Assembly: GCF_000143845.1 (NCBI RefSeq)
Contig: NC_014363.1
Span: 295,186-359,185 of the forward strand
Reading direction: 5' to 3'
DNA from: Olsenella uli DSM 7084
GTDB lineage: Bacteria; Actinomycetota; Coriobacteriia; Coriobacteriales; Atopobiaceae
Length of the DNA stretch: 64,000 nucleotides
Every line of letters begins with the position of its first letter. The first letter of the stretch is position 1. Positions 2 through 60,087 of the stretch are shown here, one piece after another. The notes below the pieces were generated by a model. That model had not been told where the DNA came from. It did not search any database and saw nothing but the letters and a program-made list of their open reading frames with translations. Both the position numbers and the translations under genes were made by a program.

Positions 2-1369
2 AAGTGGTCGGATGACGTTGCGCATGAGTATTACGTACCCGGCTTCCCCGACGCGGGCATCATCGCGGACAAGACGGCGGAAGATGAGCTTAGGGAGCTT
101 GTAACGCAATACTGGGCGGTCTATTCGATGGACCTCCCCCATGCGGAGCCGAGCGATCCGGCGCTCAACCACTGGCAGGGCGGCAAGCAGTGGAATCCCT
201 ATGACTTCAACTACGAGACGGACGTGCTGACCGTCGATTCAACGGACTACAACGTCCGCGGCGACATCCAAGAGCGTGGGGAATCGAGCACCGCCGTCGT
301 GAAGCACGAGGTGGGCGATACCGTGAACCTCGACCTTCAGCTCGACCTCGACGTGTTCAAGCGGGTGCGCAACACCGCGCTTCTGGCGGTCATCAACTCG
401 GAGTTCCCGGCATATTACACGATGCTCAACGACCTGCCCGAGAACGGCCTTGCGAGCTCGGACGGCGCGTTTGCCTTCGTGCTCGACCTGCCCGAGGGCC
501 TCGAGGCCACCGATTCGACCACCTACAAGCTTACGGGCATCGACGGTTTCGATTTGAGCGTCTCGAAAGAGAAGGGCGGCAAGAGGCTCGTGGTGAAGGC
601 GCGCCTCAAGCCTCACGGGGAATACGAGCCCCTGAAGGACCTATACGCACGCATCCAGGGCGTGCGGTCCGCGACCCTGAGCATCGATGGCCTCAAGGTG
701 ACCGACCAGGTGGCGCGCAATCAGGACAGCACGGTGGTCGCCTACGCGTACGGCGCGCACGAGGTCGTGAGCTCCTCGAGCAACGATGCGATCATCAACA
801 AGGATACGTCCGCGCAATACGATAACAAGCATTGGTACGCCCGCATCCCCATGCTCTTCGCCGCGAAGCAGAACGATGCCGGGCGCGACGTGGCCGCTCC
901 GGCCGACAAGCCCAATCTCATGACCTACAGCTTCAGGGTGGATGCTCCCGGAACCTGCACCGTGACCTTCGTGAACGATGGCGATACCTACGCCTCCGTC
1001 AAGGCCGAGCGAGGCAAGACGATCGACGGCGATGCCCTGACGGACGAATCCATGCCCGCGAACCCCTCCAAGGACGGATGCGTCTTCAAAGGTTGGAACA
1101 CCGCGCAGGACGGCACGGGCGATGCGTTCGACGGCTCGACCGTGGTCAACGGTGACATGACGGTCTATGCCGACTACGTCAAGAAGCCGGTGCCGCAGCC
1201 GGGACCTCCGTCGCAGCCGAAGGCACCGGCAGCTACGCCAAAGGCGAAGGTGCGCCGTGCTCTGCCGCAGACCGGAGATCCCGCTCTTCCCGTTGCTCCC
1301 GTCGCCGTGGGAGTCGCAGCTGTTGGCACTCTGCTTGTCGGTGCAGCGCTGCGGTGTCGCGCACATTAG
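2..1369 (+). CDS. LPXTG-anchored surface protein, 5'-truncated by window edge
   Basis: The frame is open from the first base, so the true start lies upstream. 455 residues are visible. The body has no catalytic motif I recognise and looks like extracellular beta-rich adhesin sequence. Near the C-terminus (nt ~955-1180) is one InlB/Listeria-Bacteroides-type repeat (VTFVNDGDTY...FKGWNTAQDG...MTVYADYV). A Pro-rich wall-spanning linker (PQPGPPSQPKAP) follows, then an LPQTGD sorting signal, a hydrophobic segment and a short basic tail. By family knowledge a sortase would link it to peptidoglycan. The ligand is unknown. A strong hairpin terminator follows the stop. Confidence 0.85.
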   Translation, partial: KWSDDVAHEYYVPGFPDAGIIADKTAEDELRELVTQYWAVYSMDLPHAEPSDPALNHWQGGKQWNPYDFNYETDVLTVDSTDYNVRGDIQERGESSTAVVKHEVGDTVNLDLQLDLDVFKRVRNTALLAVINSEFPAYYTMLNDLPENGLASSDGAFAFVLDLPEGLEATDSTTYKLTGIDGFDLSVSKEKGGKRLVVKARLKPHGEYEPLKDLYARIQGVRSATLSIDGLKVTDQVARNQDSTVVAYAYGAHEVVSSSSNDAIINKDTSAQYDNKHWYARIPMLFAAKQNDAGRDVAAPADKPNLMTYSFRVDAPGTCTVTFVNDGDTYASVKAERGKTIDGDALTDESMPANPSKDGCVFKGWNTAQDGTGDAFDGSTVVNGDMTVYADYVKKPVPQPGPPSQPKAPAATPKAKVRRALPQTGDPALPVAPVAVGVAAVGTLLVGAALRCRAH

Positions 1370-1410
1370 CGTGCGGCGTCTCGCGGCGCCCTCGCACAGA
1401 CCCAAGTCGG

Positions 1411-1440
1411 GTGCGGCTGGCAGGATGCCAGCCGCACCTT
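1411..1440 (+). terminator. Rho-independent terminator
   Basis: A perfect 12-bp stem (1411-1422 with 1426-1437) has a 3-nt loop and is followed by CTTTT. It lies between the convergent surface-protein and AlkD genes. Confidence 0.85.
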
Positions 1441-1468
1441 TTGCATGTCATGAGACGACATGCCTGCG

Positions 1469-2143
1469 TCAGCGCTTCAGCGTCTTGAGGTAGGCCTTCT
1501 GCTCGTCGGTGACCCTACGGCTTTCGCGCGCCTTCTGGATCGTCTTGTTGTGGACCCAGGGTGCGAGGCTGCCACGCTGCAGGTAGGGGACAGTCGCGTC
1601 CCACTGCTTCGCGAGCGCCGTCGCGAAGAACCAGGCGATCATCATGTTGACGTAGTACTCCTCCGAGTGGACGGATGCGGGAACCTCCAGGAGATCGGCC
1701 TCGAAGTTGTCGTCCAGGAAGTGCGTCATCAGCATCTCCAGGCCAAAGCGACAGGTGTAGGTCTCCCTCGAGGAGGACCAGCCCCGTATCTTGTCGAGAA
1801 GGTCCGCCTTGTGCCCCTTGAATGCCTTCGGGGACATGACATCGCAGACGGCCCAGTTGTCCACGTGGGGAAGGAACAAGTCCACTGCGGCAATGCAGGT
1901 CTCGTAGTCCCTCATCTCGGAGACCAGCAGGGCATGAAGGACGTCCTCGTCGTAGTAGTCGTGCGGCAGCCTGGTCAGGAACTCGGTCGCCTCCAAACCA
2001 TCGGAAAGCGACTTGGCAAGCCTTCGCGCATCGGGCACGCGGACGCCGATGAACCTCTCGGTCGGCACGTTCGGGGTCAGCTTCGCCTGGAAGGCGGCGT
2101 ACTTGGGATCCCGCAGCTCGAAGAGCCTGTCTCGTATGGGCAT
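1469..2143 (-). CDS. AlkD-like DNA alkylation repair protein
   Basis: 224 aa, the usual size for the HEAT-like AlkC/AlkD DNA glycosylase family, which excises alkylated bases such as 3-methyl- and 7-methylguanine. The motif DNWAVCD places W97 and D101 four residues apart, matching the catalytic Trp/Asp spacing of AlkD. Many paired helices rich in Leu/Ala fit HEAT-like repeats. The start at 2143 has a GGGAG ribosome site about 8 nt upstream. It lies 33 bp downstream of the EcfT gene on the same strand and may share its transcript, but no functional link is obvious. Confidence 0.85.
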   Translation of the reverse strand: MPIRDRLFELRDPKYAAFQAKLTPNVPTERFIGVRVPDARRLAKSLSDGLEATEFLTRLPHDYYDEDVLHALLVSEMRDYETCIAAVDLFLPHVDNWAVCDVMSPKAFKGHKADLLDKIRGWSSSRETYTCRFGLEMLMTHFLDDNFEADLLEVPASVHSEEYYVNMMIAWFFATALAKQWDATVPYLQRGSLAPWVHNKTIQKARESRRVTDEQKAYLKTLKR

Positions 2144-2176
2144 GGCGCGTCTCCCTTCGGCGTTATGGCAGGGTGG

Positions 2177-2923
2177 CTACAGTAGCACTCCCGCCGCCAC
2201 CAGCGCCACGCAGAGCGCAAGCGCGGCGGCGTCTCGCGCCGCCATGGGGTAGCGCTTGAAGCTGCTCTCGCGCGTGCGCAGGTAGAAGCCTCGCTGCTCG
2301 GCTGCGAGTGCCGTGGCGTCCGTCTTCCCCACGGAGCCCACCAACAGGGGCACGCACAGCGGCAGCATCAGCCTGAGCTTGCCGATGGGGTTCTTGGTGT
2401 CGTACTCGACCCCGCGTGCCGTCTGCGCCTCCACGATCGCGTTCATCTCCTGGCCGAACACGGGCACGAAGCGCAGTGCCGTGGTGAACGTGAACGCGTA
2501 GCGGTAGGGGACGTGCAGCACCTCCACGCACGCGTTCGCGAGATCGTTCAGCCTCGTCACGCCCAGCATGAGGATGAGCGGCAGAGCCACACCCAGGAGG
2601 CGCAGGCAGGCCTTGCCTCCCGTGACGAACCCCTCCGTGGTCGCCCACGCGAAGACCGTCCCACCGCCGCGCACGAAGACGGTCTGCAGCAGCAGCATCA
2701 CCACGGCGAGCGGGACCACCAGCTTGAGCAGCGAGACGAGCTTGCCCATGGAGCGGGAGTAGGCGCCCAGCGCGAACGTGAGGGCGAGAAGCCCCACGAG
2801 CATGGGGTAGGTGTCCGCCAAGAACGTCGCGACGATGATGGCCGCGGCGATGCCCAGCTTGGTCACGGGGTTCAGCCGGTGCAGAAGCGTGTCTCCGGGG
2901 ACGTAGTCGATGACGTTGACCAC
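2177..2923 (-). CDS. ECF transporter transmembrane component EcfT
   Basis: 248-aa membrane protein of the CbiQ/EcfT family, which couples ATPases to substrate-binding S components in energy-coupling-factor vitamin and amino-acid importers. It starts at a GTG with AAGGAG 10 nt upstream. It has several hydrophobic segments (residues ~25-75, 85-125, 225-248). The cytoplasmic region carries the family's Ala-Arg-Gly motifs (QTARGVEYD and AAEQRGF), which contact the ATPases. It lies downstream of the S-component gene on the same strand, so the two probably share the Trp-attenuated transcript. No EcfA ATPase gene is in the window. Confidence 0.88.
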   Translation of the reverse strand: MVNVIDYVPGDTLLHRLNPVTKLGIAAAIIVATFLADTYPMLVGLLALTFALGAYSRSMGKLVSLLKLVVPLAVVMLLLQTVFVRGGGTVFAWATTEGFVTGGKACLRLLGVALPLILMLGVTRLNDLANACVEVLHVPYRYAFTFTTALRFVPVFGQEMNAIVEAQTARGVEYDTKNPIGKLRLMLPLCVPLLVGSVGKTDATALAAEQRGFYLRTRESSFKRYPMAARDAAALALCVALVAAGVLL

Positions 2924-3036
2924 GGCGGACCATCTCCTTGGTTCCTTGGTGGGGTCGGCGATGCCGAGGGCCTGCCCGATCCGACGGGACGGTGACCGGA
3001 CGGGACAGGCCGAACGGGACAGTCGAGGAGGGCGGA

Positions 3037-3603
3037 CTATCTCTTGAGAGCCTTGCGGACGGGGGCGTAGAGTGCCTGGACGAGGATGGCATTGAAGACG
3101 CCGGTGGCAAGGATCACAGGGAGCATGGCCGCAGCGAGTTCCTGGGCGGCTCCGATCATCGCGATCTTGATGATCATGAAGATGACGCCGGAGACCACCG
3201 TGGTGACAAGGGTCCCAAGCGCGGGGACGAACTTCTCGGCGCTGCCGCGCATGCCGGCGCTCACGATGAGGGCCATGAGCATCGCGGCTGCGCCCTCGGC
3301 CGCGAAGTCGACGAAGGGCGATGTGGTGGTGATCTGGATCACTGCCGCAGAGATGAGGCCAATGACCAGGGCCTGGGTGACGTTGGGACGGATGACCAGA
3401 ATGGTGAGGCAGAAGGCCGAGATGATGAACTCGGGGCTGATCATGCCACCGGAGATGCTCGAGATGGCCTTGCCTACCGTGAAGTTGAGGATGAACCCGG
3501 CCGCGAGGAGGACGGCGAGGAGGACGAGGGCGCGGACGTCGAGCTTGCCGCGGTCGGGGGAGGTGACGGTGCGGGCCTGCTGGGAGCTGGTGTTCTCGGA
3601 CAT
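3037..3603 (-). CDS. ECF transporter S component, probably tryptophan-specific (TrpP-like)
   Basis: 188 aa with about five hydrophobic segments and a short charged N-terminus. It resembles small S components such as TrpP (SGGMISPEFIISAF, then the IRPNVTQALVIGLISA stretch). The start at 3603 has AAAGGAA about 7 nt upstream. The substrate call rests mainly on context: the mRNA leader encodes a peptide with three consecutive Trp codons followed by an attenuator. The protein itself contains no Trp, as expected of something made during Trp starvation. Assignment to the S-component class is good. Trp specificity is an inference. Confidence 0.75.
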   Translation of the reverse strand: MSENTSSQQARTVTSPDRGKLDVRALVLLAVLLAAGFILNFTVGKAISSISGGMISPEFIISAFCLTILVIRPNVTQALVIGLISAAVIQITTTSPFVDFAAEGAAAMLMALIVSAGMRGSAEKFVPALGTLVTTVVSGVIFMIIKIAMIGAAQELAAAMLPVILATGVFNAILVQALYAPVRKALKR

Positions 3604-3690
3604 GGTCTGGTTCCTTTCGTCTGGCTCACTGTGCCGTATGTGATGGGATGCGCACTGCCTGCTTGGGATGGGGCGCACGAGCACAAAGAA

Positions 3691-3717
3691 GAGGCTCCCG
3701 GCCAAACCGGGAGCCTC
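3691..3717 (-). terminator. Trp attenuator terminator hairpin
   Basis: A perfect 11-bp stem (3707-3717 with 3691-3701) with a 5-nt loop. On the minus strand it is followed by TTCTTTGT. It sits between the leader peptide and the S-component gene. It can also terminate plus-strand RNA (CTCTTT follows). Confidence 0.85.
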
Positions 3718-3749
3718 TTTACCTCGCGAAGATATGGCGCGAGAGACTC
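3711..3749 (-). promoter_or_regulatory. Antiterminator competing with the Trp attenuator
   Basis: Minus-strand RNA from 3749 can fold as GAGUCU paired with AGGCUC (the left arm of the terminator). This is continued by CUCGCG paired with CGCGAG (3738-3743 with 3723-3728), with a small bulge. The fold removes the terminator's 5' arm. Its 5' strand overlaps the leader-peptide stop codon, so a ribosome that finishes the leader would block it. Structures were found by eye, not by energy calculation. Confidence 0.65.
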
Positions 3750-3828
3750 ACGATCGACCGACCGCTTGCGAATCGCGCCACCACCAGTTCATGGACGTGC
3801 CTGCGTTGGCTGTGACGATGCGGTTCAT
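3748..3828 (-). CDS. Trp leader peptide (26 aa, WWW)
   Basis: Short reading frame MNRIVTANAGTSMN, then Trp15-Trp16-Trp17, then RDSQAVGRS and TGA. GAGGAG lies 8 nt before the ATG. The three consecutive Trp codons (3778-3786) sit about 30 nt before the antiterminator. This is the classical layout in which a ribosome stalled for charged tRNA-Trp allows antitermination. It precedes the ECF S-component gene. Confidence 0.85.
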   Translation of the reverse strand: MNRIVTANAGTSMNWWWRDSQAVGRS

Positions 3829-3886
3829 CTCTGGCGCTCCTCTCGAATGATTTGTCGTGTGACGGTCTACACTTGTGTTGTGGAGG

Positions 3887-3916
3887 ACTATACGTCCGCT
3901 GCCGCCCTCGCCGCAA
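3887..3916 (-). promoter_or_regulatory. Candidate promoter of the Trp-attenuated ECF operon
   Basis: On the minus strand TTGCGG (3911-3916) and TATAGT (3887-3892) are separated by 18 bp. The start would fall near 3880, leaving a ~50-nt leader before the leader-peptide ATG. Hexamers were matched by eye only. The rest of the 3604-4085 gap holds no other gene that I can see. Confidence 0.5.
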
Positions 3917-4085
3917 GGCTCGTTGTGTAAACGCTTGGTAACGAGGGCCTGAAGGCATGGGGCAAGATCGACCATGAGGGGGTCGCGTGTGGCAACGAGG
4001 CGCGTCACCGCCTGCGGCAGCTGGTAGGGGGTGACGCCCGCGTCCACCACCGCGACGCCAAGTCGCCCGCAAGAAAGGACCCGCC

Positions 4086-4823
4086 ATGCGCATTACTCAT
4101 ATCTACCACAGTGGCTTTGCCGTCGAGCTCGCCTGCTGCACACTGCTCTTCGACTGGTACACAGGCGAGCTCCCCAGGCTCCGCTACGACCTGCCGCTCG
4201 TCACGCTCGTCTCGCACGAGCACTCCGACCACTACGGACGCTGCATCTGGTCGCTGCGCGAGCAGTTCCCCAACGTGCGCTACGTGCTGGACGAGGACGT
4301 TGCGGCAGACGCCCCGGCCGATGCCCGCGTGACCGCCGTCGAGCCGCACGAGTCCTACGAGCTGCAGCTCGATGGCATGGGCAGCCTGCCCGACGCTGCC
4401 GGCGCTACCGTCCCGCTCTCCGTCGAGACCCTGGAGTCCAACGACGAGGGTGTGGCATTTCTCGTCCGTGCCTGTGGCACCTCGGCCTTCTTCTCGGGCG
4501 ACCTCAACTCGTGGCAGTGGGCACGCCCGGCCGAGCAGAACGCGGCGTCCGAGAAGTTCTTCCGCACGGAGCTCTCGCGCATCGTCCCTGGCCCCGTTGA
4601 CCTTGCCTTTGTCCCGCTCGACCCACGCCTTGAGGACCCGGCCGCTGGCATTGCCGCCCTTATGGACGTGGTTGGCGCCCGCGCGCTCTTCCCCATGCAC
4701 TACTGGGATGCCAGCGCGGCCGCTCGCGCCCTCATGTCAGACGCTCGCCTTGCACCGTACTTGGGCATAACGCACTTTGAGGACGTCTGCGAGCTGCCAG
4801 ACCCGGTCACACCCTCGGCCTGA
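4086..4823 (+). CDS. MBL-fold metallo-hydrolase
   Basis: 245 aa. The metallo-beta-lactamase signature HEHSDH is at residues 44-49, a GDLN motif lies near residue 137 and MHYWD is near the C-terminus. Together these supply the His/Asp ligands for a two-metal site. It belongs to the short UlaG/YycJ-like MBL branch and its substrate cannot be named. AAAGGA precedes the ATG by 8 nt. It is a single-gene unit, divergent from the ECF operon and convergent with the next gene. Confidence 0.85.
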   Translation: MRITHIYHSGFAVELACCTLLFDWYTGELPRLRYDLPLVTLVSHEHSDHYGRCIWSLREQFPNVRYVLDEDVAADAPADARVTAVEPHESYELQLDGMGSLPDAAGATVPLSVETLESNDEGVAFLVRACGTSAFFSGDLNSWQWARPAEQNAASEKFFRTELSRIVPGPVDLAFVPLDPRLEDPAAGIAALMDVVGARALFPMHYWDASAAARALMSDARLAPYLGITHFEDVCELPDPVTPSA

Positions 4824-4845
4824 CGCCGCCCTAGGGGGCCGTCCC

Positions 4846-5628
4846 TCAAATCCTCCGGACACCCTCCCAGACCCACATGATGAGCGGAGCGGGAATGACC
4901 TTGCCGGCGATCCGCATGAGAAGGCCGGTGACGCAGCAGGTGGCAACGGGGTAGTTTGCGGCGTTCACGAGCATCGACCAGCGCACCACACGACGTGCTC
5001 CCAGCATGGGGAAGGGGTGGCGCACGGTCTGGCCGTTGGCCGTCCGGCGCGCGACGTCGATGAACTCGGTCTTCACCCAAAGCGGGCACACGGCGGTCAC
5101 GTGGATGCCCCGCCCCCGCAGCTCAAAGCGGAGCGCTCGCGTGTAGCTTCTCACGAACGCCTTGCTTGCCGCGTACACGTTGAGCCCCGGAAGCGGCTGG
5201 AACGAGGCGCTGGACGCAACCTGGACGATGCGCCCGCCGTCTCGCATGTGCGCAAGCGCTACCTGCGTCACGTCCACCAGCGCACGGCAGTTGAGGTCGA
5301 CCATGGAGTCGGCCTCGGCAAGCGTCATGTCCGCATACGTGCCAAACTTGCCAAAGCCTGCCGCGTTCACAAGGAGCCCCACCTCGAGGGAGGGGTCGTC
5401 GCACGCCTCCTCGTCGAGAATCGCCTGGAGCGTCGTTGCCGCAGACCCCTCCGTGAGGTCCAGGGGTAGCGCGCGCACGGGGGTCGAGAGCTCCTTGGCA
5501 AGCGCGTGGAGCCGCTCCTCTCGGCGCGCGATGGCCCAGATCTGGTCGAAGCTGCCATGGGCGTCCGCCCAGCGTGCGTACTCGCGGCCCAGCCCGCTCG
5601 AGGCCCCGGTTATGAGAGCTATGCGCAT
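4846..5628 (-). CDS. Short-chain dehydrogenase/reductase
   Basis: 260 aa. It has a classical SDR Rossmann start (ITGASSGLG, residues 6-14), NAAGFG, a catalytic YAASK (Tyr-x-x-x-Lys) and a preceding Ser (ASSAS). It reduces or oxidises a carbonyl/alcohol with NAD(P)H, and the substrate is not predictable. I chose 5628 as the start because an AAGGAGG lies just upstream and it puts the nucleotide-binding motif at the N-terminus. The C-terminal ~50 residues are hydrophobic, so membrane association is possible. Confidence 0.9.
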   Translation of the reverse strand: MRIALITGASSGLGREYARWADAHGSFDQIWAIARREERLHALAKELSTPVRALPLDLTEGSAATTLQAILDEEACDDPSLEVGLLVNAAGFGKFGTYADMTLAEADSMVDLNCRALVDVTQVALAHMRDGGRIVQVASSASFQPLPGLNVYAASKAFVRSYTRALRFELRGRGIHVTAVCPLWVKTEFIDVARRTANGQTVRHPFPMLGARRVVRWSMLVNAANYPVATCCVTGLLMRIAGKVIPAPLIMWVWEGVRRI

Positions 5629-25866: not shown

Positions 25867-26244
25867 CTACATATCGGCTTCGGCAAGCGTGTCGAGCATC
25901 TCGTGCAGATCGGTCACGGTGATCCCTGCCGCACTCGCATCTGCCAGGGCCTGTTCGAGCAGGCCCTCCACCTCACGAAGCCTCTCCTCGCGCAGCAGCT
26001 CGAGGTTGCCGCGCGCGACGAAGCTGCCCCGACCCTGGACCGTCTCGATGAAGCCGAGGGACTCGAGGTCAGAGTAGGCGCGTTTGGTGGTGATGACGCT
26101 CACGTGGAGGTCTCCCGCAAGCGCCCTGATCGAAGGCAACTGCTGGCCCGCGGCAAGGTCGCCCGAGAGGATGGCTTCCTTCACCTGGGAAGATATCTGC
26201 TCGTAGATGGGTCGTTCGCTTGTGTTCGATATGACGATGTCCAC
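25867..26244 (-). CDS. GntR-family regulator, YtrA subfamily
   Basis: 125 aa. The N-terminal winged HTH (RPIYEQISSQVKEAILSG, then QQLPSIRALAGDLHVS) is followed by only ~50 residues, the short dimerisation arm typical of YtrA regulators. It represses the ABC operon it heads. A perfect 10-bp inverted repeat 85-116 bp upstream is the likely operator. Confidence 0.92.
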   Translation of the reverse strand: MDIVISNTSERPIYEQISSQVKEAILSGDLAAGQQLPSIRALAGDLHVSVITTKRAYSDLESLGFIETVQGRGSFVARGNLELLREERLREVEGLLEQALADASAAGITVTDLHEMLDTLAEADM

Positions 26245-26328: not shown

Positions 26329-26360
26329 TGTATATATATGATAGATACAGTATATATACA
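26329..26360 (-). promoter_or_regulatory. GntR/YtrA operator, perfect inverted repeat
   Basis: TGTATATATA (26329-26338) and TATATATACA (26351-26360) are exact inverted repeats with a 12-bp spacer. The flanks hold TATACA/TATAAT-like hexamers, so a promoter probably overlaps it. Confidence 0.65.
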
Positions 26361-26509
26361 CTAAGCACGGTCGTCAACGGTGAACGCCACGCGTCACTCA
26401 CTTCTGCCATATGTCCAGTCCTTGCGCAATCATGTGTCCCATTCGATGTGGCCGCCAGTCCTGTTCGGCGTGAGCATGGGTCTTTCCCGGTGTAATCACG
26501 GACCCCGTG

Positions 26510-26716
26510 TGTAACAAAATCGGCGGTTATGTGTGGTTTCCAAGGCCTTGAACCGGACGCCTTTCCCTATGGGCAGATTCTTCATAAAATGATATATAGA
26601 TATAACTGCGTATATATGTTTTGATTCGGACGAGTAGCATGCTCTGTCGGTCCGTCTCGAGTGTGTGGCGACAAAAAGTAGAGAGAAAACCACACATAAC
26701 CGCCGATTTTGTTACA
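26510..26716. repeat. Inverted-repeat-bounded element 1 (possible inverton or MITE)
   Basis: A perfect 30-bp inverted repeat (26510-26539 and 26687-26716) bounds a 147-bp AT-rich interior. Each arm reads TGTAACAAAA, then TCGGCGGT, then TATGTGTGGTTT. The outer blocks recur in element 2 (42657-42851) while the middle 8 bp differ. There is no coding sequence and no clear target duplication. Confidence 0.65.
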
Positions 26717-26759: not shown

Positions 26760-27557
26760 CTAGCCCAGACCCACGTCAAGGGCCATCATCACGGTGAAGC
26801 CGAGCGCAAAGGCTATGACGCCCCAGTTGGAGTGCTCCCCCTCGCTCATCTCGGGGATGAGTTCCTCCACGACAACGTACATCATGGCACCGGCAGCGAA
26901 GCTCAGCAGGTGGGGGAGGGCGGCCGTCACCTGGCTGGCAGCGGCGATGGTGATGACGGCCCCGATGGGCTCGACGATGCCCGACGCAAAGCCGCCTAGG
27001 AACGCCCGCGACTTGCTGTCACCCCCGGCGCGCAGCGGCATCGAGATGATGGCTCCCTCGGGGAAGTTCTGGATTGCGATGCCCAGCGAGAGAGCGAAGG
27101 CACCCGCTGCGGTGAGAGCCCGGCTTCCCGCCAGGAGGCCCGCATACGCCACGCCCACGGCCATCCCCTCGGGGATGTTGTGGAGCGTGACGGCCAGTAC
27201 CATGAGGGAGTTGCGGGTAAGCCCGCTGCGTGGCCCCTCCGCCTTGGAGGCGCCCAGGTGCAGGTGGGGGATGACGCTGTCGAGCACCAGCAAGAACGCG
27301 ATCCCCACCCAGAATCCCACGAACGCCGGGACCCAGGCCATGCGTCCCATGCCCCCGCTGCTCTCTATGGCAGGAATGATGAGCGACCAGATGGATGCTG
27401 CGACCATGACGCCGGCGGCAAAGCCCGTGAGGATGCGGCTGACCGTCCTGCTGAGATTGCCTCGCATGAGGAAGACCATCGCCGCGCCTGCCGTGGTACC
27501 AAAGAGCGGCAGGCCCAGACCCACGAAGAGGTTCGAGAGGGAATCCGAGACGTCCAT
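26760..27557 (-). CDS. ZIP-family divalent metal transporter
   Basis: 265 aa with about eight hydrophobic segments. The metal-binding motifs HNIPEG (helix 4) and QNFPEGA (helix 5) are those of the ZupT/GufA branch, which imports zinc and other divalent metals. A His-containing loop (PHLHLGASKAEG) lies between helices 3 and 4, and EELIPE follows. It is a single-gene unit. No metal-responsive operator was recognised upstream. Confidence 0.92.
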   Translation of the reverse strand: MDVSDSLSNLFVGLGLPLFGTTAGAAMVFLMRGNLSRTVSRILTGFAAGVMVAASIWSLIIPAIESSGGMGRMAWVPAFVGFWVGIAFLLVLDSVIPHLHLGASKAEGPRSGLTRNSLMVLAVTLHNIPEGMAVGVAYAGLLAGSRALTAAGAFALSLGIAIQNFPEGAIISMPLRAGGDSKSRAFLGGFASGIVEPIGAVITIAAASQVTAALPHLLSFAAGAMMYVVVEELIPEMSEGEHSNWGVIAFALGFTVMMALDVGLG

Positions 27558-42365: not shown

Positions 42366-42656
42366 CACGGGGCTGCCTCCGAGCCTGGCCTTGACTGCTG
42401 TGGGGGAGACACCTCCACAGGCTACTTTTGTGGGCAACGAGCGCGGGTAGGCCCGTCTCCGAGGTGCTGCATACCTCCCTGTAGCCTTCAAGACGGCGTC
42501 AGGACATGTCGCTTACCAGAAGAGAAGCGTGGAAGAGCCGGATCTTGGGAAAGTTCGGGTCACCAAGGGATGTGCCGCGAGGTGACGAAGGACGCTGGCG
42601 AGGGCTTTGTTGGGTACACCATGTCTCGAGCGACACGCTGCCCCTCGAGCAAAAAA

Positions 42657-42851
42657 CTGGATGTAACAAAACTGACAGGTATGTGTGGTTTGACCGACGC
42701 TTGCGGCGCTCTCAGCAATAGAAAACAACTCTTTTTGTTGTAAATGCAACGAAAAGACCGCTCTTATAACTTCGTAGGGGCCCATTCGTCTCCGTGAGGC
42801 CATCGCAAGAGTGTCCGAACTACACATACCTGTCAGTTTTGTTACATCCAG
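42657..42851. repeat. Inverted-repeat-bounded element 2 (possible inverton or MITE)
   Basis: Perfect 30-bp arms (42657-42686 and 42822-42851), with imperfect pairing continuing ~20 bp inward. Each arm reads CTGGA, TGTAACAAAA, CTGACAGG, TATGTGT. Outer blocks match element 1 (26510-26716); the central 8 bp differ but are identical within this pair. The interior (135 bp) has a small hairpin (ACAAC/GTTGT) and no gene. Confidence 0.65.
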
Positions 42852-42935
42852 CTTCCAACGCGGCGCTATGGTGCCTTCTCCCCCATGCCGCAACGACGGC
42901 ATCCCCTGGCACGTGGGCAAATAAGCGCGCAAAGA

Positions 42936-43137: not shown

Positions 43138-45411
43138 TTACATCCTGTCGTGGCAGGTGCGGGCGATGACGTCGAGCTGCTGCTCGCGCGTGAGGTCGAT
43201 GAACTTCACGGCATAGCCGGAGACGCGGATGGTGAAGTTGGCGTACTCGGGCTTCTCGGGGTGCTCCATGGCGTCCTTGAGCTTCTCGACGCCAAATACG
43301 TTGACGTTGAGGTGGTGGGCACCGGCGGCAAAGTAGCCGTCCATGACGTTGACCAGGTTGGCCTTGCGCTGGTCGAGGTCGTTGCCCAGGGCGCTGGGGT
43401 TGATGGTCTGGGTGTTGGAGATGCCGTCGAGCGCATACTCGTAGGGGAGCTTGGCCACGGAGTTGAGGCTGGCGAGAAGGCCGTTCTGCTCGGCCCCGTA
43501 GGCGGGGTTGGCACCTGGTGCGAAGGGGGTGTACGCCTTGCGGCCGTCGGGCGTGGCAGCGGTGGCCTTGCCATAGACCACGTTGGAGGTGATCGTCAGG
43601 ATCGAGGTGGTGGGCTCGGAGTCGCGATAGGTGTGGTGCTTCCTGATCTTGCCCATGAAGGTCTTGAGCAGCCACACGGCGATGTCGTCGGCGCGGTCGT
43701 CATCGTTGCCGTAGCGCGGGAAGTCGCCCTCGGTCTCGAAGTCCACGATCATGCCGTCCTCGTCGCGCACGCACCTGACCGTGGCGTACTTGATTGCGGA
43801 GAGCGAGTCGACGACGTGGGAGAAGCCGGCGATGCCCGTGGCGAAGGTGCGGCGGACGTCGGTGTCGATCAGGGCCATCTCGGCGGCCTCGTAGTAGTAC
43901 TTGTCGTGCATGTACTGGATGAGGTTGAGGATGTTGACGTAGAGGCCCGCCAGCCAGTCCATCATGAGGTCGAACTTGTGCATGACCTCGCCATAGTCCA
44001 AGAGCTCTGAGGTGATGGGCGCGATCTCGGGGCCGACCTGCATGTTCTTGCCGGTCTTCTTGTCGCGGAACTTGACGTCCTTGCCGCCGTTCATCGAGTA
44101 CAGCAGGCACTTCGCGAGGTTGGCACGAGCCCCGAAGAACTGCATCTCCTTGCCGGTCTGCGTTGCGGAGACGCAGCAGCAGATGCTGTAGTCGTCGCCC
44201 CAGACGGGTCGCATGACGTCGTCGTTCTCGTACTGGACGGACGAGGTGTTGATGGAGACCTTGGCCGCGTACTGACGGAAGGCCACGGGCAGGCGATTGG
44301 AGTAGAGGACGGTCAGGTTGGGTTCGGGTGCCGGTCCCATGTTCTCGAGGGTGTGCAGGAATCGGAAGTCGTTCTTGGTCACCATGTGACGCCCGTCCAT
44401 GCCAAGGCCGGCCATCTCGAGGGTCGCCCAGACGGGGTCTCCGGAGAACAGCTCGTTGTAGCTGGGGATGCGGGCGAACTTGACCATGCGGAACTTGAGG
44501 ACGATGTGGTCGACGAGCTCCTGGGCCTCCTGCTCGCTGAGGATGCCGGCGGCAAGGTCGCGCTCGATGTAGATGTCCAGGAACGTGGAGATGCGCCCTA
44601 CGGACATGGCGGCACCGTTTTGGGTCTTGATGGCCGCGAGGTAGCCGAAGTAGAGCCACTGGAAGGCCTCGCGGGCGTTGGTGGCCGGTCGGGAGATGTC
44701 GTAGCCGTAGATCTGGGCCATGTCCTTGATGCCACGGAGCGCACGGATCTGCTCTGCAATCTCCTCGCGCAGACGGATGATGTCATCGGTCATGGTGCCA
44801 TCGCCGCAGTCGAGAAGGTCCTGCTGCTTCTTGGCGATCAGGAAGTCGATGCCGTAGAGCGCGACGCGACGGTAGTCGCCGACGATGCGGCCGCGGCCGT
44901 AGGTGTCGGGCAGGCCCGTCACGATGTGGGAGTGGCGGGCGGCGCGCATCTCGGGGGTGTAAGCGTCGAAGACGGCCTGGTTGTGGGTCTTGTGATACTC
45001 GTTGAAGATCTTGTCGTACTTGTCATCGACGTGGTAGCCGTAGTTCTCGGCCGCCTGCTGTGCCATCTTGATGCCACCGTAGGGCATGAAGGCACGCTTG
45101 AGGGGCTTGTCGGTCTGGAGGCCCACGACCCTCTCGAGGTCCTTGAGTTCGGGGTCGATGTAGCCGGGACCATAGGCGGTCAGGCCGCTCACGACCTCGG
45201 TCTCGCAGTCGAGGACGCCCCCCTTGGCGCGCTCTTCGGCCTGGAGCTGCTGGACCTTGCCCCATAGCCGATCAGTCGCGTCGGTTGGGCCGGCGAGGAA
45301 GGACTCGTCGCCGTCGTAGGCGCTGTAGTTCCTCTGGATGAAGTCGCGGACGTTGACGTCATCCACCCAGTGGCCACCAGTAAAGCCGCCCCACTCTTCA
45401 CGCAGTTGCAT
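43138..45411 (-). CDS. pflB: Formate C-acetyltransferase (pyruvate formate-lyase)
   Basis: 757 aa, the usual PFL length. Active-site Cys pair Cys412-Cys413 in ICCCVSA and the glycyl radical site Gly732 in RVSGYAVKF. It splits pyruvate plus CoA into acetyl-CoA and formate in anaerobic fermentation and needs PflA to install the radical. Its ATG abuts the pflA stop (TAG-ATG), so the pair is translated as one unit with the activase first. An FNR-type promoter lies upstream of the pair. Confidence 0.96.
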
Positions 45412-50040: not shown

Positions 50041-50339
50041 TGCGCTATAGGGGTGAGGAGGCCATCGGCCTCATCGAGACGATCGGGATGGTTCCGGCGA
50101 TCTATGCGGCGGACGCGATGCTCAAGGCTGGTGACACGGAACTCGTCAGCTACGAGAACGTTGGCTCCACCTTGGTCACGATCGTCGTCAAGGGCGACGT
50201 CGCGGCATGCGAGGCCGCAGTCAAGGCCGGCAGGGAGGCTGCCTCGAGCATCGGGAAGCTCACGGCCTCGAACGTCATGAAGCGCCCGGTTCCGCCCATC
50301 GGCGACGTCGTCTCCGTCCATGACGTCGACTTCAACTAG
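50041..50339 (+). CDS. BMC-H shell protein
   Basis: 99 aa single BMC domain (EAIGLIETIGMVPAIYAADA, then GDVAACEAAVKAG). It assembles as hexamers tiling the microcompartment facets. The C-terminal ~20 residues (RPVPPIGDVVSVHDVDFN) extend beyond the core. GGAGG lies before the ATG. It is distinct in sequence from the triplicated copies at 58.8-60.1 kb. Confidence 0.95.
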
Positions 50340-50350
50340 GAGGTTGTCCT

Positions 50351-50662
50351 ATGGCAAGCGAGGGTATGAACGCGCTTGGCGCAATCGAGACCTTTGGGCT
50401 CGTCTGGGTGCTTGAGGCGGGCGACGCCATGTGCAAGGCAGGTGACGTCGAGCTGATCGGCTACGAGAACACCGCCTCCGGCTACATCTCGATCCTCGTC
50501 CAGGGCGACGTCGCGGCATGCGAGGCCGCAGTCAAGGCCGGCGTCAAGGCAGTCGAGGAGCTTGGGGCCGAGGTGTACAGCTCGGTCGTCATTCCCAGGC
50601 CCCACCCAAGTCTCAAGAAGATCACCGAGAAGTACACCGTCGAGAAGCTCCTGCCCTACTAG
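50351..50662 (+). CDS. BMC-H shell protein
   Basis: 103 aa single BMC domain (NALGAIETFGLVWVLEAGDA, then GDVAACEAAVKAGVKAVEE) with a short C-terminal extension (SLKKITEKYTVEKLLPY). It shares an exact GDVAACEAAVKAG stretch with the previous gene, including the DNA, which suggests paralogy with local conversion. AGGAGG precedes the start. Confidence 0.95.
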   Translation: MASEGMNALGAIETFGLVWVLEAGDAMCKAGDVELIGYENTASGYISILVQGDVAACEAAVKAGVKAVEELGAEVYSSVVIPRPHPSLKKITEKYTVEKLLPY

Positions 50663-58779: not shown

Positions 58780-58823
58780 GCGGAGCATACAGGCTCAAAA
58801 ACTAGACCCAGGGAGGAAACAGC

Positions 58824-59108
58824 ATGGCAAGCACGACTGAGGCGCTCGGAATGATCGAGACCAAGGGCATGGTCGGTGCCGTCGAGGCGGCGGACGCCAT
58901 GGTCAAGGCGGCGAACGTCAGGCTCGTCGGCAAGGAGCGCGTCGGGGGCGGCCTGGTCACCGTCTTCGTCCGCGGCGACGTGGGGGCCGTCAAGGCCGCG
59001 ACCGACGCGGGCGCCGCGGCGGCGCAGCGCGTGGGCGAGCTCCTGAGCGTCCACGTGATCCCGCGCCCGGACGGCATGGTCGAGTCCATCCTGCCCCACG
59101 CCGAGTAG
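58824..59108 (+). CDS. BMC-H shell protein, copy 1 of 3
   Basis: 94 aa: [20 protein letters not shown], pore-loop region [12 protein letters not shown], and [13 protein letters not shown]. The DNA from 58805 through the coding region is repeated exactly 360 bp later. CAGGGAGGAAACAGC before ATG is a strong ribosome site. Likely the bulk facet hexamer. Confidence 0.96.
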
Positions 59109-59183
59109 CGACACCAGTGGCAAAACTTCGAGAGGGAACCATGAGACGGGCTTGGAAGCCCACTGACCCAGGGAGGAAACAGC

Positions 59184-59471
59184 ATGGCAAGCACGACTGA
59201 GGCGCTCGGAATGATCGAGACCAAGGGCATGGTCGGTGCCGTCGAGGCGGCGGACGCCATGGTCAAGGCGGCGAACGTCAGGCTCGTCGGCAAGGAGCGC
59301 GTCGGGGGCGGCCTGGTCACCGTCTTCGTCCGCGGCGACGTGGGGGCCGTCAAGGCCGCGACCGACGCGGGCGCCGCGGCGGCGCAGCGCGTGGGCGAGC
59401 TCCTGAGCGTCCACGTGATCCCGCGCCCGGACGGCATGGTCGAGTCCATCCTGCCCCAGGCCGAGGCCTAG
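59184..59471 (+). CDS. BMC-H shell protein, copy 2 of 3
   Basis: 95 aa. Identical to copy 1 except for the last residues (PQAEA for PHAE). Upstream DNA from 59165, including the ribosome site, is also repeated, so the whole unit was duplicated. Confidence 0.96.
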
Positions 59472-59475
59472 TCAG

Positions 59476-60087
59476 ATGACGACGAGGAAGCCCGGGCAGG
59501 AGGGGGACGCCGGGCGTGCGGCGTCCCCCCGCCCCGCGGGGGATGAGGGAGGGCGCGAGGTCGACAAGGCCCCCGCGAAGCCTGCGAAGTCAACGGCGAA
59601 ACAGGGAAGCGGCAGCCGCACCTCCGCGTCCCGCACGGACCAGTCGGCAGCAGCCGCCAAGGTGGCGCAGCCGGCCCCTGGCGATGCGGATGCTCCCACA
59701 ACCAAGAACGAACCAGCGTCTGGGGCCGAGGGCCTCGAGACGACCCAGAAGGCGGCCCGGCCCAAGGAGGCCGTGCCCCACCACAACAAGGAGGTAGCAC
59801 CAATGGCCAACATCATCGAGGCGCTCGGAATGATCGAGACCAAGGGCATGGTCGGTGCCGTCGAGGCGGCGGACGCCATGGTCAAGGCGGCGAACGTCAG
59901 GCTCGTCGGCAAGGAGCGCGTCGGGGGCGGCCTGGTCACCGTCTTCGTCCGCGGCGACGTGGGGGCCGTCAAGGCCGCGACCGACGCGGGCGCCGCGGCG
60001 GCGCAGCGCGTGGGCGAGCTCCTGAGCGTCCACGTGATCCCGCGCCCGGACGGCATGGTCGAGTCCATCCTGCCCCACGCCGAGTAG
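59476..60087 (+). CDS. BMC-H shell protein, copy 3 of 3, with 109-aa N-terminal extension and internal start
   Basis: 203 aa. Residues 1-109 are low-complexity, rich in Ala, Pro, Lys and Gly and predicted disordered ([14 protein letters not shown]). From Met110 the protein is the same BMC-H domain as copies 1 and 2, with only the first few residues changed (MANII). An AAGGAGG (59788-59794) 8 nt before the in-frame ATG at 59803 indicates internal initiation of the 94-aa short form. The long start has only a weak site and follows copy 2 by 4 bp. Confidence 0.9.

Follow-up and report, generated by a model that had tools for sequence, protein, structure and literature searches.

Paired-arm intergenic DNA elements with phased lengths in Olsenella uli and related bacteria

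Introduction

What are the paired inverted repeats that stand at two places in a 64,000-nucleotide stretch of the Olsenella uli chromosome, and do their arms serve a recombinase, a transposase or something else? The stretch, referred to here as the window, covers positions 295186-359185 of the single-contig genome (2,051,896 bp), and the two elements, E1 and E2, are its two longest closely spaced inverted repeats. The original prediction took the arms for tyrosine-recombinase inversion sites, with conserved flanks around a core that varies between elements and is matched within each, and named a miniature transposable element (MITE) as the alternative. We find that E1 and E2 belong to a family of short non-coding elements, apparently not yet described, that occurs in a group of anaerobic bacteria; among the papers searched, none on repeats of such a type in Olsenella or Atopobium was found.

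Results

The left arm of E1 (26510..26539, + strand) reads TGTAACAAAA-TCGGCGGT-TATGTGTGGTTT and the right arm (26687..26716, - strand) is its perfect inverted copy, the two, 147 bp apart, forming a 30-bp inverted repeat that was recognised both as a repeat and by profile match. In E2, the left arm (42662..42691, + strand) reads TGTAACAAAA-CTGACAGG-TATGTGTGGTTT and the right arm (42817..42846, - strand) has the same core and 2 mismatches at its inner end. Weaker conserved outer flanks lie at 42652-42661 and 42847-42856, and the E2 repeat runs outward to about 42654-42854 at 95%. Inverted repeats are thus present exactly where they had been predicted. E1 is located between a GntR regulator gene on the left (25867..26244, - strand) and a ZIP transporter gene on the right (26760..27557, - strand), the 3' end of the latter being 44 bp away, and E2 is located past the 3' end of pflB, the gene for pyruvate formate-lyase (43138..45411, - strand).

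The pattern TGTAACAAAA-N8-TATGTGTGGTTT had 4 matches in the window against 0 in 100 dinucleotide shuffles, which bears out the predicted conserved flanks around a variable 8 bp, and 26 matches genome-wide against 0 for the reversed control. A chance repeat was rejected on the shuffle counts and the reversed-pattern control. The further genomic copies that the original prediction proposed to look for exist: the neighbourhoods of the pattern matches, when read, yielded 15 elements, each with both arms, and a profile search added a single arm without a partner (genome 1300059-1300096), 43 nt past a stop codon. In genome order, the outer-to-outer lengths are 207, 185, 230, 207, 197, 206, 206, 207, 197, 230, 228, 185, 185, 186 and 185 bp. 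All 15 elements are intergenic and most are at 3' gene ends, between 6 convergent, 8 co-directional and 1 divergent gene pairs as read from rough gene calls. No element is located at 641-1389 kb of the genome (p=0.025 for a gap this large), a region that contains a dif candidate (1067.6 kb) and the solo arm, which is the sole arm inside this ter-side region. Just left of E8, part of the outer half-arm is repeated in tandem (genome 1495165-1495180). No convincing match to the O. uli arm sequence was found when 139 further genomes of the family were searched. A match in G025 was discounted, having no partner arm and lying, by our reading, inside coding sequence, as were matches in genome and viral collections, which were single and in number near the chance expectation; E1 was not found in phages.

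All 30 O. uli arms have TG..ACA (positions 1, 2 and 5-7) and TATGTGT (19-25) without variation; outward of the arms, a less strongly conserved AAAgCtGGA reaches over 10 bp. A palindromic insertion target was rejected because the O. uli genome contains no copy of the joined-flank motif AAAGCTGGATCCAGCTTT, and the outer flank was therefore counted as part of the arm. We also rejected a small ORF starting from the invariant ATGTGT, since such ORFs vary widely in length, and those with 20 codons in the 185-bp group do not resemble one another in sequence. In 6 of the 15 elements, both arms carry a matching variable segment between the conserved boxes: the 8-bp core (positions 11-18) agrees at 8/8 positions in five and at 7/8 in one, and the cores of the other nine match at chance level only. 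With positions 10 and 27-28 added to the core (11 variable positions), the two arms are identical in 5 of the 15 elements, as against 0 of 210 comparisons between different elements. Core matching within elements is far from chance and, with nine elements at chance level, it arises in discrete events, not as a gradual trend. The predicted pair-matched core therefore stands for six O. uli elements, and nearly universally for the relative G039, and does not stand for the other nine.

The relatives, sampled in stretches, were G038, G039 and G077, with only the region downstream of rpoC considered in the others (30 relatives at rpoC). Inverted-arm elements with other sequences were found downstream of rpoC in G038/G039 and G077. 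The congeners G038 and G039 contain 25 elements each, with arms wholly unlike those of O. uli, such as GGAGCG-WWWN-GGCCCC-AAGTGCGTG, and G077 contains at least 9 in 400 kb. In samples of 400 kb each from G039 and G077, paired-arm families make up most of the long, close inverted repeats. A second family in G077 (family B) has arms of the form CGTTTCCCCAGC-variable-GACTGTACAGTC; five were found, all exactly 155 bp in length, for example at L151 12946-13102 and L159 11430-11586. The boxes are invariant in 30/30 arms in O. uli and 50/50 arms in G039, and the interiors have 50-60% identity or less. Behind the outer box, the arms of both genera can have either an A-rich or a T-rich tract. The variable positions 7-10 of the G039 arms match at 88-100% within elements versus 32-48% between elements. 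Downstream of rpoC in G113 (L121), we observed a different kind of repeat, consisting of dense, degenerate short intergenic repeats such as TCTAAGAATCGGC and TTGCTCCGCGA.

The O. uli elements differ in length by steps of about 11 bp (185/197/207/229). For ten groups without recognisable kinship, and with the period left free, the period was estimated to 11.0 bp (R=0.90, p=5e-5); counted as four length classes only, the phasing is weaker, with p about 0.01 by hand estimate. This phasing prompted a search for a replicate in the relatives, and the lengths in G039 (162/163, 174/175, 184/185 and 195-197) independently yielded a period of 11.0 bp (R=0.945, a value reached in 0 of 20000 simulations; 11 interior groups). 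The homologues L187 (174 bp) and L184 (184 bp) differ by a clean 10-bp insertion. Spacing in whole turns, which is the test for a DNA-loop site of the paired-operator type, was thus found in both O. uli and G039, and the 11-bp step fits the helical repeat of 11.1-11.6 bp for lac loops in vivo (PMC1762422). The lengths in G077 family A, 134/135 and 143/144, are 9 bp apart, which is no clean turn; this family is either an exception or contains too few elements.

The interiors of the O. uli elements are mostly unrelated to each other. Related interiors of 185 bp were found in E2, E12, E13 and E14 (50-60% identity, almost no indels), and another interior is common to E7 and E8 (58% identity). A central motif, AGATATAACTGCGTATATATGT in E1 (26598..26619, + strand), keeps one fixed distance to an arm in E1, E3, E5, E7, E8 and E9, and is shifted from this position by about whole turns in E4, E6, E11 and E13, where some matches are weak. 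Elements of the 185-bp group have a palindrome at their centre, TCTTTTTGTTGTAAATGCAACGAAAAGA in E2 (42730..42757), at a position common to E12, E13, E14 and, with a different sequence, E15; in E2, E12 and E14 it is similar to the outer half of the arm, and compensatory changes are seen in the hairpin. Many elements thus contain a central motif or palindrome, and in several the motif was looked for and not detected. Ten G039 elements have a central motif AATCCTGGGCTTTTG, whose distance is 68-69 bp to one arm and either 91 or 101/102 bp to the second.

Clear orthologues in G038 were identified for 23 of the 25 elements in G039, all of them in place and with the interior in the same orientation; high identities for the inverted orientation in this comparison were an end-gap artefact, the interiors not being palindromes. 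The orthologous interiors are 95-100% identical, and the arms differ by 7 mismatches in 1288 positions by our count. The remaining two elements have counterparts in G038 at diverged loci, and there are no differences in presence or absence between the two genomes. In the L247/L212 pair, with lengths of 185 and 184 bp and interiors that are about 70% identical by reading of the alignment, all four arm substitutions are present in both arms. Three elements in O. uli and G039 are located at the same gene and gene end: the 3' end of rpoC (at 148 bp in O. uli, E14, and 271 bp in G039), the 3' end of pflB (at 291 bp in O. uli, E2, and 176 bp in G039) and the 5' end of rplE. About 0.3 shared gene ends would be expected by a hand calculation. 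A fourth pair, beside a gene for a Cys/Met-metabolism enzyme, is at opposite gene ends and was left out of the count.

The tyrosine recombinases found in O. uli were two XerC/D-like proteins and two partial matches, and no serine recombinase was found in this genome. None of them is located beside an element. The linked recombinase that the original prediction proposed to look for was thus not found, and an unlinked one could still be at work. One XerC/D-like protein adjoins an hsdS inversion locus (L109, genome 1909000-1917000), in which inverted copies of hsdS (type I restriction specificity) at about 1179-5541 contain a 314-bp perfect and a 111-bp near-perfect inverted repeat, with a tyrosine recombinase gene beside them (genome 1912487); this locus is likely phase-variable. 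It contains no arm match, and its recombinase was rejected as one that acts on the elements. A candidate dif site, AACTGCGATAATATATCTTATGTAAAGT, was identified at genome 1067604-1067632. As only one half of it resembles the arms, namely their inner half, the arms were not taken for Xer/dif sites. A simple sigma-70 scan of E1 identified no promoter inside the element. The only sigma-70-like site near E1 (26349..26377, - strand) is outside it, toward the GntR gene, and the number found was no higher than in shuffles. An invertible promoter in the interior of E1, as had been suggested, is not supported, given this placement and the location of most elements at 3' gene ends.

Discussion

The sequence-specific boxes, the phased spacing and the central site together point to a protein that synapses two arms on the DNA. 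The most likely explanation, for which we consider the chances nearly balanced, is that each element is a chromosomal synapsis, or loop, site, vertically inherited, at which a predicted protein binds both arms and ties a short loop. In such a scheme, a clade-specific DNA-binding protein complex would recognise the arm of ~26-40 bp via its outer and inner boxes, and the bound inverted arms would be brought together such that the element of ~160-230 bp is bent into a small loop, with help from the central motif or palindrome in many copies. With so short a loop, both arms would have to be on the same helix face, and only lengths differing by one turn of intracellular DNA, ~11 bp, would be kept. 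The elements would be old and would stay in place by vertical inheritance, mostly past 3' gene ends, and all arms of a genome would change in sequence along with the binding protein. The sequences show the family and its distribution, the phasing, the central motif, the matching within pairs, vertical inheritance and the absence of inversion between two congeners; the binding protein, the loop, a change of the arms in step with the protein and whatever advantage the cell may gain are what we infer.

The matched cores would mean either that the arms are repeatedly made identical or that matching is required for the site to work; the source can be template switching, the action of a recombinase on the pair, or selection. 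Template switching homogenises the arms of inverted repeats and can invert spacers, mostly shorter ones (PMC8604942). Simple binding to a site does not require matched cores, and this counts against a loop site, as does the fact that no binding protein was found. The three shared positions at rpoC, pflB and rplE could be insertion hot spots, the 9-bp difference in G077 family A and the constant length of family B do not follow the turn, the O. uli phasing is weaker over four length classes, and in several elements the central motif was not detected. One close likeness is to the paired operators of lac-type repression loops, which also consist of two helically phased sites at a similar distance, with an in-vivo repeat of about 11 bp (PMC1762422). 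The elements differ from these in standing away from promoters as a rule, in being dispersed as a family, and in their long inverted arms, matched cores and additional central site.

Copies of unit size at unrelated places, whose homology ends near the arm ends, are also what resident miniature mobile elements of the MITE or REPIN type would leave, as old or slowly replicating copies whose arms are the ends bound by a transposase. The intergenic positions would then be tolerated, with 3' positions preferred, the phased lengths would mirror the distances over which a transposase achieves synapsis, and the occurrence of two or more arm families in G077 would be natural. We nevertheless regard this as rather unlikely. 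The O. uli elements have no target-site duplication, direct repeats being fewer than in shuffled pairing, and on this the MITE alternative, as the original prediction put it, also fails. No full-length parent was found, all O. uli arms belonging to short elements or to the solo arm, and no autonomous parent with these ends was found in 139 genomes of the family. The Y1 transposase of the RAYT type (PF01797) is absent from O. uli, G038 and G039, with one match in G077. There are no near-identical copies, every clear G038/G039 orthologue is in place, and the interiors drift while the arms are conserved. The lack of target duplications and of a parent, together with the stable positions, argues against an ordinary MITE.

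Like Correia-type and other bacterial MITEs, the elements are of 100-250 bp with terminal inverted repeats and no coding capacity; they differ in the absence of a target-site duplication and a parent and in their stable positions, clade-specific arms and phased lengths. With the REP/BIME and REPIN sequences of enterobacteria and pseudomonads they share the organisation as short, dispersed, non-coding inverted site pairs between genes, long-lived and vertically inherited. However, the copies here are far fewer, the bipartite arms are longer and lack an internal palindrome, the spacing is quantised by the turn, the cores are matched within the element, and three of the four genomes searched have no RAYT transposase.

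It is very unlikely, in our judgement, that the two arms base-pair into a stem, whether in a transcript or in single-stranded or cruciform DNA, with the matched cores as compensatory base pairs. The matched and varying cores in G039, the L247/L212 substitutions that changed in both arms together and the central hairpin of the 185-bp group are consistent with a stem. However, pairing does not need invariant box sequences, the cores of nine of the 15 O. uli elements match at chance only, apart from the 185-bp group the interiors in the main show no better folding than shuffled sequences, and phasing of the spacer is unexpected for RNA. An Rfam search at gathering score identified tRNAs only, and no Rfam family at the element sites.

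Least probable of the readings considered is that the arms are recombinase sites with the matched core as crossover (overlap) region and an interior that flips: the core matched within elements, the helical phasing that synapsis of close sites would likewise require, and the 11-6-11 layout with an 8/11 match of one arm half to the candidate dif (our reading) would suit it, but all 23 clear G038/G039 orthologues have the same orientation, nine O. uli elements have unmatched cores, the matching extends past an 8-bp overlap to positions 27-28, the outer arm half is unlike dif, and the single orientation, the lack of a linked recombinase and the lack of a promoter in E1 argue against an invertible promoter. 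What remains of the proposed recombinase-site architecture are the paired protein-type sites, the conserved flanks and the core matched within elements; inversion is not supported. Invertons and phase-variable promoters with tyrosine-recombinase sites, and the dif modules of Acinetobacter, similarly have inverted sites of ~28 bp in which conserved flanks enclose a variable centre. The elements here differ from them in showing no inversion between congeners and in having no promoter or gene inside and no linked recombinase.

Returning to the loop-site explanation, a broader and more tentative proposal, possible in our view and no better than that, is that the elements represent a new class of loop-anchoring element in the Atopobiaceae, with sites that stay at the same gene ends across genera, a lineage-specific predicted protein whose recognition sequence changed in concert at every site of a genome, and turn-quantised spacing. 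If so, DNA loops in living cells would be revealed by sequence alone, and the spacing in dozens of natural site pairs would be a record of the helical repeat in vivo, about 11 bp per turn. To our knowledge, looping has not been measured in these bacteria. The elements would also point to a new architectural or recombination protein in the Atopobiaceae, with those at rpoC, pflB and rplE as ready-made test sites.

The window contains repeats of another kind. Direct repeats of 300 nt with 94-100% identity were observed in three copies at 58805-60083 and 50051-50542, along with a related repeat of 181 nt, and these repeats are probably within coding sequence.
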